From Pagrus major (Eukaryota > Chordata > Actinopteri > Spariformes > Sparidae): a stretch of 64,000 nucleotides of DNA. Location of the stretch: the NCBI RefSeq assembly GCF_040436345.1, contig NC_133224.1, forward strand, positions 8,238,741 to 8,302,740, written 5' to 3'. Under the pieces are notes generated by a model, which had not been told where the DNA came from, did no database searches, and saw only the letters and a program-made list of their open reading frames with translations. Below, one piece after another: positions 512 to 20,118 of this stretch. A program made the position numbers and the translations under genes. Position 1 is the stretch's first letter. Every line of letters starts with the position of its first letter.

Positions 512-1043
512 TCTTTGTCCATTAGCTACCTTTATCTATTTTAAACATGTATCCAGTACTTTTAGCTAACTACGTGAGCTTTTTAGCCAATCATTTTTGC
601 CAGCCATCTGAATTGTTTCTTGATTGCTTTTAGCTGCCATTTCCACGGTTTGCTTTTCACGCTCTAGCTAACTATTTCAACAGTGCATCCATTATGGTTT
701 GCGAACCATTTGAAGTGTTTCGTTGTTACTTTTAGTGAGTCATTTGAACAGTTTTTTCATTTAATTTAGCTAATGATTTCCACCTTTTATTAATTACTCT
801 CAGACCGCCATTTGGCCTTCATGACTTTTAGCTAACGTACCCTGTTTGTCCATTACTTCGCTAAAAATTTGAAATGTTTATCCGGACTTTTAGCTATCTG
901 AACTGTTCTTACAATTACTTTTAACTCAATATTTAAACAACCACCACTGCTGATGAAAATCAAGCTGATGTGGCTCAGGCACAAATGTTCACAGATGAGG
1001 TCATGTTTAAAGTTGTGTCACCTTAAATGAATTACTCTTATCC

Positions 1044-1264
1044 ATGACTTTTAGTTAGGTTACCCTGTTCATCCATTACATAGCTAACCATTTCAAATGT
1101 TTATCCAGAGTTTAGCTACCTGAACTGTTTTTATAATTACTACTTATTCATTTGTTTATTCAGCACTTTTAATTAACCATTTCAACTGTTTCATTACGTA
1201 TAAGAACCTACTGACGTGACTGATTGTTCATAGCTTAATAAGGACACTGAGACAAATATTGAAT
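1044..1264. other. AT-rich flank below gene 1
   Basis: AT-rich sequence with many short repeats of a TTTTAGCTAAC-like motif. It recurs in all units and contains no open frame with protein character. It probably lies just past the gene's polyadenylation site. Confidence 0.4.
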
Positions 1265-1282
1265 TTCGTCATGTCAAGAGCT

Positions 1283-1288
1283 TTTATT
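1283..1288 (-). terminator. polyadenylation signal of acidic-repeat gene 1
   Basis: AATAAA on the minus strand, about 120 nt into the inferred fourth exon. It is conserved in all four units (6299, 11449 and 16558), supporting the 3' end model. Confidence 0.7.
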
Positions 1289-1778
1289 TGATCCCATGAC
1301 TGTAAAACATGGCCTCAGTTGGTTTAAATGCTGAAATGCTCTTTCTTGTATATCACGTGGTCATCATGTCGACACCCATGGTGCTGAAGATCAGGTGTTT
1401 GTTGGAGAGCTGCAGAGGAAGAGCAGATACAGATACACGTGAGTATATAGACTACAAGATGTGAGCTTAAATGTTTTCTCATAGTTTTCTGTGAGATGTT
1501 CAGTCAGATCCTAATTCTGTCTTCATTAATAATGGAGCAGATAAAAAGATAGCGCCTGTTATGACAACAGAATATTTGATAGAGTAAGATATGGCTCTGT
1601 GCTGTACCATGATGTATGGCTGTATTGTACATACTTATACCTACAAAAGTAAATGAAAACTAATTAAATAACTGATTTAGGGGAAAAAATATACATTTTT
1701 GGAAAAGTATGAGAAGAAATGATGCATACTCGTGACTTACAGGCAAGATGTTGTGAGGGATTCAGCCTTGTCAGGTTT

Positions 1779-2669
1779 TTAATTAAGAGGGTTAGGCTCA
1801 GCCTCATCATCTTCGGATTCCTCGTCCATCTCAGGCTCATCATCTTCGAAATCCTCGTCCATCTCAGGCTCATCATCTTCGAAATCCTCGTCCATGTCGG
1901 GCTCATCATCTTCGAAATCCTCATCCATGTTGGCCTCATCATCTTCTAAGTCCTCCTCTGGCTCCGACCCTTCAACAACGTCCTCCTCTGGCTCCGACCC
2001 TTCAACAGCGTCCTCCTCTGGCTCCGACCCTTCAATAACGTCCTCCTCTGGCTCCGACCCTTCAATAACGTCCTCCTCTGGCTCCGACCCTTCAACAGCG
2101 TCCTCCTCTGGCTCCGACCCTTCAATAACGTCCTCCTCTGGCTCCGACCCTTCAGTAGCGTCCTCCTCTGGCTCCGACCCTTCAGTAGCGTCCTCCTCTG
2201 GCTCCGACCCTTCAATAACGTCCTCCTCTGGCTCCGACCCTTCAGTAGCGTCCTCCTCTGGCTCCGACCCTTCAGTAGCGTCCTGCTCTGGCTCCTTCAC
2301 TCCAACAGCGTCCTGCTCTGGCTTTGGCAAATCAACTTTAACCTCATCATTGATGGCTGTTAGAAAGACATGTAATTGCATCCATTAAGAAAGGTCAGAT
2401 ACTCAAACAGTTGTCCCTTTAGTCAAAGAACTTATCCAGTTTTGTAATTTTATATTGAGAAATCACACAAAACACTGACAACCTAACGTCTACATACAGA
2501 GGTGACAATGCATCAATGCATACGACACATCTGGTGCACATACCACTTTATACTTGACATCAGAATTTATCATCTAGTTACCTTTGGCTTTAGCAGAATC
2601 ATCTGCTGATGGTGCTGCACTGAGCGCAGCCACAAAGGCACAGGCCAGCAGAAGAATTTGGATCTTCAT
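1779..2669 (-). CDS. secreted acidic repeat protein, array copy 1 (221 aa, two coding exons)
   Basis: The family is not recognised. Coding exons are 2582-2669 and 1779-2356. The intron between them is phase 1, with donor AAAG/GTAACTAG and acceptor TTTCTAACAG. A noncoding exon ends at 2786 (CTGAAG/GTAAAT). The repeat exon continues past the stop to a donor at 1741 (GCCT/GTAAGT), and a 3' UTR exon begins at 1409 after CCTCTGCAG. The leader MKIQILLLACAFVAALSA is a clear signal peptide, so the product should be secreted. After a short linker come 11 repeats of type EGSEPEEDAT (or DVI, DAV), then 4 units of type EDDEPEMDEDF, then the tail AEPNPLN. There is no Cys in the mature part and it is very rich in Glu and Asp. 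Each 10-mer contains S-E-P-E, a CK2-type site. Binding of calcium or cationic partners is only an inference. The repeat numbers differ from the other copies, and the tail lacks the TREDSSKKDE segment they have. Confidence 0.82.
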
Positions 2670-2866
2670 TTTCTGAAAGGAAACATAAAAACGTACAAAA
2701 ATACTGTGAAATGGTCCGTGAGTATTTAGCAACAGATTCTGTTCAGTCTGTGGGTCTGACAGAAGAGTAAAGGTACCGTATTTACCTTCAGTTTTCAGTA
2801 GCTCTCAGGTCCAAAGGACTTCAACTCAAGTCAGGAGTGTTCTGACCTTCCAACTGATGCACCTTC

Positions 2867-17838: not shown

Positions 17839-18035
17839 TTTCTGAAAGGAAACATAAAAACGTACAAAAATACTGTGAAATGGTCCGTGAGTATTTAGCG
17901 ACAGATTCTGTTCAGTCTGTGGGTCTGACAGAAGAGTAAAGGTACCGTATTTACCTTCAGTTTTCAGTAGCTCTCAGGTCCAAAGGACTTCAACTCAAGT
18001 CAGGAGTGTTCTGACCTTCCAACTGATGCACCTTC

Positions 18036-18043
18036 AATATATG
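18036..18043 (-). promoter_or_regulatory. TATA-like box, copy 4
   Basis: CATATATT on the minus strand at the conserved offset. Confidence 0.45.
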
Positions 18044-18984
18044 TGAACTTCTGAGCTAGGAATGTTTGTTTGGTAACAAAGCTCATCCAATGAAAAGTTT
18101 CCACGTGTTTTGCTAGTCTGTGACAAACATGCTCCGAGGCAAATGATGTAGTGCACAGCCACCTTCCGTGCAGAGACACGTATTGACACCAAGGATCAAC
18201 TGAACAACTGTATTTTATTTCATTTATATCAACTATTCATGTTAAATACTGATCAGGTGGAAATTATGTTTGGAAGTCCCTCTGTGAAAGCACGAGAAGC
18301 CGACTGGCATTTATTGTACAGCCTTGGCTTTTGATTGAGTACTCCACTAACTCACACAATAATTTAAGGTCATTAACATTTCTTTTGGAGAAAATAATCT
18401 CGTCATAAGCCGGCAATTAAATCAGAATTTGCTAACTTTTAGACACTCTTATGCTGTTATACGCCAGCAATTGGTACAACTATGGTTACAAACGTTTCTG
18501 ACTTATAACAGTTAATAACTTCTTTTCAACTCTTACTGCTTTTTGCTAATGCTCTGATGTTTGAACAAATTTGCTGATGAACTGACTGATCTGGTTTCAA
18601 ATGATGATGTCATTCAGAGCACCACACTCTGAGAGCAGCAGAGGCAGTCGGTGTTTCGCAAACACAAAATATCAGTCCTAGATAAATGCGATAACTGTGG
18701 ACTGAACGTTGAATTCACAAATCAAGAATGCACTTTTGTTTTTCTGAAGTTATTGTAGAGGAATTAGTCCTTGTCGATGTGGTGAAATGTTCTTTATCTT
18801 AACGTTACATTAGACAAGCAGACATATTTAGATATTTTATTTTGAGTTGAGTAGGAGGTCATCATTCCTTACACTTTTCCTCTTGTGCTTTTGGTTTTTG
18901 AAAGGCCAACTCATAGTATAGGCTACATAGTATTGTTCTCACTACAACCCTATGTCGGCTACACTGCTTCAGTTTTACGAAACG

Positions 18985-19370
18985 GTCAAGTTAGCATTGG
19001 TAGTTGATCCAAGAGACAGAGAGAGGATGGAGACAGAAGCCTCAACATTGAGGTGTACAGAAAACCTACACAGACAGATCAGTACTTGCTGTTCGACTCT
19101 CATCACCCACTGGAGCACAAGCTGGGGGTCATCAGAGCCTTAAACCATCGGGCTGAGACCGTGCCCACTAAGTCAGGGGAAGGAGAAGGAACAGAAGAAC
19201 AGCAGGGGTGCACTTAAAACCTGTGGCTACCCAATTTGGACCTTTGTCAAAACCGCTAAAAGATCCAGAGCAGACAGAGAGGAGAAGAAAACATAACAAC
19301 ATCGTCATTCCCCATGTCGCAGGAACATCTGAAAAACTCAGGAGGATCTTTAATAAACATCATATCCCGG
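18985..19370 (+). mobile_element. Penelope-like relic, left piece (unit 4)
   Basis: Same relic as in units 1-3, up to the TATCCCGG that precedes the hAT element. Confidence 0.7.
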
Positions 19371-19848
19371 CAGAGCCAGGCCTTGGCATAGGCTGTATAG
19401 GCGAATGCTAAGGGTGCCATCATCCACGGGGGGCGCCGCAAACAGGGGGAGAAAAAAAATATTATTATTTTTTACCAGTGCTATTACGACTATTATTTCG
19501 AAATATTATATAAGCCCACAGCAACATAACTTGATAGCAAAGCCTATTAAATAATGGATAGGCCTTTTTCTGGATTCCTGGCTGGCTCGTCACACTGTAC
19601 CTGCCCTCTGTGAGGGTGGGGAGCGGGGTCGAGAGGCAAGTTGCCTGAATCTGACCGGACCATGACCCAAAGACCAAGAGAGAGATTTATTAATACTGTA
19701 GCAGAATCACAATGTCCAAAAGACTAAAACCATCCGGCGCCCAGGGAAGGAAAAGAAGGAAAGAAGAGAAAAACATGAAAATATATACACACATATATAC
19801 ACATTTATATACAGTTGCAATCAAAATTATTATATTATATTATATATA
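19371..19848. mobile_element. hAT-type element, left half only (unit 4)
   Basis: Starts with CAGAGCCAGGCC after TATCCCGG, as in the other units. It breaks off shortly after the internal CAGTTGCAATCA motif, in a TATTATATTATAT run. No right end is present. Confidence 0.78.
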
Positions 19849-20118
19849 GAAAATGTAACAACATCGTCATTCCCTATGTCGGGAACATCTGAGAAACTCA
19901 GGAGGATCTTTAATAAACATCATATCCTGGTTCACTTTAAACCTACCAACACACTGAGGCAGAAACGTGTCCATCCTAAGGGCAAAACACCCATGTATAA
20001 ACAGAGTAATGTAGTTTATGCTGTTCAGTGCAGCCAGGATGACCACCTGGATGAAAGAGAACCTTCATCAACGAGAATGGATACTGATTTTAAAGTACCG
20101 GGGCCTTTCCCAGTTTGA
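19849..20118 (+). mobile_element. Penelope-like relic without the hAT insertion (fifth-unit remnant)
   Basis: Sequence restarts at the point matching ACAACATCGTCATT of the Penelope relic. It runs straight through the hAT target (TATCCTGG at 19923-19930) into the VHFKPTNTLRQK and NVVYAVQCSQD segments in one frame. This is the unfilled form of the site. Confidence 0.75.

Follow-up and report, generated by a model that had tools for sequence, protein, structure and literature searches.

A recently amplified tandem array in Pagrus major with gene models for a predicted secreted, acidic repeat protein

What is encoded by the tandemly repeated units of a 64,000-nt window of the Pagrus major genome (assembly GCF_040436345.1, contig NC_133224.1, positions 8,238,741 to 8,302,740, forward strand), and could the product be a working protein? 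A preliminary description had proposed four intact genes for an unrecognised secreted polyacidic protein. From its sequence, the locus is a recently amplified tandem array, i.e., three full units and one truncated unit, referred to here as the array. The array was judged to be real and young, and polyanion or calcium handling was most likely as the predicted role of its product. The explanation favoured here, although held only tentatively, is a recent tandem array of a probably lineage-restricted gene for a secreted, disordered polyanion that would act as a loose binder of Ca2+ and other cations.

The array was delimited by self-comparison of the window. Units of approximately 5.1-5.2 kb and a shorter fourth were recognized (Table 1), and the main aligned pieces of the four copies showed 90-98% identity. 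The proposed four copies were thereby confirmed; the duplication is beyond doubt and a chance origin was discounted. The extent of the array was corrected. The genes had been described as reaching position 20118, but the similarity of unit 4 to the other units ended at approximately 19831, with an unmatched stretch inside at approximately 18844-18914, and 20118 is the end of a retroelement-like open reading frame (ORF) on the plus strand. An exact 2,530-bp block was present twice (5002-7531 and 10152-12681). Between units 2 and 3, no differences were found over 5751-7531 and none after 10418, whereas 47 mismatches and five gaps were placed in between. The exact identity points to recent duplication or gene conversion, and such recent exchange supports the favoured explanation. 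It may instead reflect false haplotype duplication in the assembly. Exact copies of a 14-bp motif were found at 257 and towards the end of each of units 1-3 (5737, 10887, and 15996). An AT-rich microsatellite of differing length was also present once in each full unit (4840-4972, 9966-10122, and 15094-15231).

Gene models were predicted from sequence alone, by alignment of the four gene regions and scripted reading. All four were placed on the minus strand with four exons each, in the order of TATATT box, non-coding exon 1, exon 2, exon 3, and exon 4 with AATAAA. The first base of the TATATT box was 86 nt before the end of exon 1 in every gene, and three GT-AG introns were found in each. Exon 2 (91 nt) carries the start codon, signal peptide, and a short linker, and none of its 91 columns varied among the copies. 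The coding intron, i.e., intron 2, was in phase 1 in all four. Exon 3 comprises 30-bp and 33-bp repeats, the stop codon, and 38 nt of 3' untranslated region (3'UTR), and it was open to the same stop in each gene. In the alignment, a 99-nt stretch close to the end of this exon was missing from gene 1. The stop codon thus lies 38 nt upstream of the last exon junction in 4/4, a distance inside the usual limit of nonsense-mediated decay. The preserved anatomy, together with this constant stop position, argues for the favoured explanation, and the TATA-like box, three introns, signal peptide, open repeat exon, and polyadenylation signal of the preliminary description were all recovered in all four genes. 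In gene 4 alone, a second AATAAA was found in exon 4 (16617-16622). A loose signal scan of 2,491 ATGs gave 39 signal-like starts, eight of them with a flanking acceptor and donor; half of these eight were the array genes and the other four were background.

The predicted products of genes 1-4 are 221, 254, 254, and 185 amino acids long. The coding sequences of genes 2 and 3 are identical, so that three distinct proteins are encoded: the leader was indeed the same in all copies, as had been noticed, but the repeat exon does not vary between these two genes. With signal cleavage set by us after residue 19, the mature products have 166-235 residues, contain 47-50% Asp and Glu, and carry a net charge of -0.42 to -0.48 per residue. 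The sequence supports a secreted, Glu/Asp-rich product, as was claimed. They have no Cys; the claim of a Cys-free protein holds for the mature form only, because each precursor has one Cys in the leader. The isoelectric point given by the script was 4.05 for all four, which is believed to be the floor of the program and hence no measurement. By the charge-hydropathy rule, on which the disorder call rests, all three distinct products fell on the disordered side of the boundary despite their differing lengths. The acidic composition and disorder common to the three are consistent with the favoured explanation. The repeats were of two acidic types, of 10 residues (28 units) and 11 residues (17 units), and were not identical. 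The recurring S-E-P-E sites were present in every product but unevenly, i.e., 11, 10, 10, and 2 in genes 1-4. These sites fit only the looser S-x-x-E/D pattern, of which 4-14 were counted per mature product, and not S-x-E.

Under the favoured explanation, the product would be secreted and cleaved to a Cys-free, disordered polyanion of the mature length given above. Within a secreted fluid or a mineral, such a polyanion might then bind Ca2+ and cationic surfaces loosely and with high capacity, like OMM-64 or starmaker in otoliths. Calcium or cation binding is plausible from the charge only. Unequal exchange between units and repeats would alter gene dose and polymer length while strong acidity is kept. 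According to the literature, OMM-64 is disordered and highly acidic, with much Asp and Glu; it compacts with calcium, and the size and shape of CaCO3 crystals are under its control (PMC9496343). The array products are likewise Asp/Glu-rich and predicted to be disordered, with a secretion signal. OMM-64, starmaker, and starmaker-like, which are secreted proteins of the otolith mineral matrix (PMC9496343), share this strong acidity and disorder, and OMM-64 and starmaker appear closest by action, likened by description rather than direct sequence comparison. In the same account, zebrafish starmaker is phosphorylated on 25 Ser and 3 Thr (PMC9496343), whereas the mature products of the array have 6-16 Ser and no S-x-E. 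As for the tissue, the carbonate matrix of toadfish intestine is reported to hold 15 and 8 proteins with an isoelectric point below five in two preparations (PMC5046086), which makes gut carbonate one candidate.

Relatives of the protein were searched with the gene 2 product throughout, the gene 1 product being used for Pfam only and that of gene 4 not being among the queries. No match was found in Pfam at E up to 1, nor in NCBIfam or the Protein Data Bank (PDB). In a set of 5.8 billion proteins, in which proteins of about 140-445 amino acids were eligible and unannotated genes are invisible, none of the 7,995 candidates sharing most words with the gene 2 product reached E 1e-3. Residues 1-46 gave 28 candidates, none at E up to 10. 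As a positive control, the neighbouring gene NAT8L from the same window retrieved 404 proteins at 1e-10; the first two among the matches listed were a Zoarces viviparus protein, at 94% identity, and one of Perca flavescens, at 95% over 97%. The set therefore holds fish proteins, and these matches point to a probable percomorph host. No relative was found although this set is rich in teleosts, which supports the favoured, probably lineage-restricted gene and, within these searches, bears out the earlier view of an unrecognised family. In the literature, no description of the acidic repeat gene was recognised among the matches listed, and the protein is apparently undescribed.

Several observations weigh against a working secreted polyanion. 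The protein-set searches returned no annotated copy of the predicted protein from any species, Pagrus major included. S-x-E sites were absent from all four mature products (0 in each). Acidic residues were themselves variable. In the ten-residue units, Glu was replaced by Gly in 5 of 28, and Gln took its place at two columns, in 2 units and 7 units, respectively; in the eleven-residue units, Glu-Asp was replaced by Gly-Gly in 5 of 17. The invariance of the other repeat columns is no evidence, because the pattern used for picking units itself fixes several of them. Single-base changes among the repeat variants were 13 nonsynonymous to 3 synonymous, against a neutral expectation of 79% nonsynonymous; the change lists were hand-typed from the repeat-unit tallies, with the multi-step codon differences TCG/AAG, GAG/AAC, and TTC/CCC left out. 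Outside the repeats, 1 of 218 ungapped columns of exons 2 and 3, including 41 from the stop onward, was variable, compared with 24 of 1,111 elsewhere, a set made up of the introns, exon 1 and the stretch before it, and exon 4 and the sequence after it (Fisher p = 0.10; p = 0.24 for coding columns alone). Constraint on the protein was thus not detectable and the repeat codon changes look neutral, but the copies are too young for a strong constraint test. The four genes are intact as models, as had been stated, with the reservations that one is a coding duplicate and that protein constraint is not detectable.

The same results raise the alternative that there is no working protein gene here. The array would then be a duplicated relic, expressed or silent, whose acidic frame survives by frame-keeping repeats and the youth of the copies. 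The antisense frame over the coding part of exon 3 was as open as the sense frame, i.e., 190, 223, and 154 codons against 191, 224, and 155 in genes 1, 2, and 4 (gene 3 equals gene 2). Moreover, gains and losses of 30-bp and 33-bp units leave the frame intact. An open repeat exon is therefore only weak evidence for a protein. The neutral-looking codon changes, the two Fisher tests, and the lack of a homologue in the protein-set searches also fit a relic. What speaks against it is the retention of splice sites, signal peptide, TATA-like box, and AATAAA in four of four genes, and the sole difference in the ungapped non-repeat coding columns, ATC/ATA, is synonymous. A relic is considered unlikely, although it is the strongest of the alternatives.

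Membership in the SCPP family is suggested by the model anatomy, since the array resembles that family in its non-coding exon 1, the signal peptide in exon 2, and the acidic secreted product. The coding intron separates them. SCPP introns are described as virtually all phase 0 in one source (PMC6732285) and as all phase 0 in another, where phase 1 was used to exclude Odaph (PMC7807025). The lack of S-x-E in the array is a further difference, but it is not decisive alone; S-x-E is stated to mark most, not all, SCPP members, mammalian amelotin having no S-x-E exon, and S-x-x-E/D sites also occur in this SCPP (PMC4373244). No SPARC-type domain was found among the 150 flanking ORFs scanned, all from the right flank, which is the only one in the window. 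With the phase 1 intron in 4/4 genes and no S-x-E, membership was rejected and has hardly any likelihood left.

Tandem repeats in a secreted fish protein also recall hyosophorin, and the product could be a hyosophorin-like apoprotein of egg cortical alveoli, i.e., a repeat polyprotein released at fertilisation. Trout hyosophorin is encoded by a multigene family with variable repeat number. Differences were also noted: hyosophorin or polysialoglycoprotein has one identical peptide, whereas the array has two non-identical unit types, Thr is not conserved (9 of 28 ten-residue units), and no N-x-S/T sequon occurs in any of the four products. An N-linked form was rejected on the lack of sequons; the cod egg sialoglycopeptide is reported to bear its N-glycan on Asn (PMC6983019). 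Hyosophorins are characterised as very rich in carbohydrate and located in cortical alveoli, and the trout form as O-linked, not N-linked (PMC3528131); only such an O-linked type would fit the array. An estrogen-responsive promoter was also rejected. In a weak test, estrogen-response-element-like matches numbered 32 in the window against 25.2 expected, a count reached by 11 of 100 shuffles, and none fell in the 300 bp preceding any of the four TATA boxes. A hyosophorin-like role was considered improbable. Just as improbable is a charge buffer of mucus or granules, in which the polyanion would neutralise cationic peptides or histones or keep them in store. Charge and the secretion signal are what suggests it, but the mature products have only 0 or 1 dibasic site and thus no processing pattern, and no cationic partner gene was recognised, no specific search for one having been made.

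In its gene organisation, the array can also be compared with the gadid antifreeze glycoprotein genes. These are described as a lineage-restricted multigene family with imperfect repeats, which start in exon 3 and are preceded by the 5'UTR, the signal peptide, and a propeptide (PMC8622921). Repeats begin in exon 3 after the signal peptide in both, but those of the array are acidic.

Table 1. Positions of the duplicated units, the shared block, and the gene models within the window
Feature	Position	Strand	Remark
Duplicated unit 1	512..5750	.	self-comparison, alignment
Duplicated unit 2	5751..10900	.	self-comparison, alignment
Duplicated unit 3	10901..16009	.	self-comparison, alignment
Duplicated unit 4, promoter-distal side truncated	16010..19831	.	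self-comparison, alignment
Exact 2,530-bp block	5002..7531 = 10152-12681	.	recent duplication or conversion
Gene 1 TATA-like box (TATATT)	2867..2872	-	same distance to exon 1 end in all four
Gene 1 exon 2, signal peptide and linker, ATG first base 2669, phase 1 donor	2582..2672	-	identical in four copies
Gene 1 exon 3, repeats, stop 1779-1781, 3'UTR start; product 221 aa	1741..2356	-	30-/33-bp repeats
Gene 1 exon 4, 3'UTR only, acceptor to AATAAA (1283-1288)	1283..1409	-	model
Gene 2 TATA-like box	7982..7987	-	model
Gene 2 exon 2, signal peptide, ATG first base 7784	7697..7787	-	model
Gene 2 exon 3, repeats, stop 6795-6797; product 254 aa	6757..7471	-	model
Gene 2 exon 4 to AATAAA	6299..6425	-	model
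Gene 3 TATA-like box	13132..13137	-	model
Gene 3 exon 2, signal peptide, ATG first base 12934	12847..12937	-	model
Gene 3 exon 3, repeats, stop 11945-11947; product 254 aa, same as gene 2	11907..12621	-	model
Gene 3 exon 4 to AATAAA	11449..11575	-	model
Gene 4 TATA-like box	18036..18041	-	model
Gene 4 exon 2, signal peptide, ATG first base 17838	17751..17841	-	model
Gene 4 exon 3, repeats, stop 17056-17058; product 185 aa	17018..17525	-	model
Gene 4 exon 4 to AATAAA	16558..16686	-	model

Of the other features in the window, NAT8L (N-acetylaspartate synthetase) exons were found at 26190-41521 on the plus strand, and the hand-spliced product was 94-95% identical to the Zoarces and Perca proteins. 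A retroelement-like relic on the plus strand (3719-5400 and 18940-20118) had interruptions in unit 1 and in the first of its copies in unit 4, but none at the right edge. It presumably resembles the reverse-transcriptase end of a Penelope-like retroelement; in Pfam, one of its pieces had no match and the other only a sub-threshold phage-tail match (E 0.014). For the flank, 269 ORFs of at least 55 amino acids ending beyond base 20200 were collected; a complexity filter retained 205 of them, and Pfam was searched with the 150 longest. Nine families with one member each were returned, i.e., acetyltransferase-type families, FeeM (E 0.0088), and YiiM_3-alpha (E 0.0058); the last exon of NAT8L was among the ORFs scanned, and the matching members are not named in the output. 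Rfam at the gathering threshold and ARAGORN found nothing. A direct repeat (48991-49639 and 49978-50623, 86.6% identical) and a 29-bp tandem repeat (38475-38781, 10.6 copies, 70% matches) were also present.

A further reading, which is less likely than the favoured explanation and rather doubtful, is that a taxonomically restricted family, absent from the searched sets, gave a percomorph fish its own secreted polyacidic calcium-handling polymer independent of SCPP; unequal exchange, still going on, would adjust the number of copies and the length of the chain. The array illustrates that an exon of short repeats can convincingly resemble coding sequence even where no constraint is measurable. 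If the genes are expressed, their products would add one more family of acidic secreted polymers with an origin outside the SCPP lineage, and the young array would allow individuals to be compared for dose and chain length.
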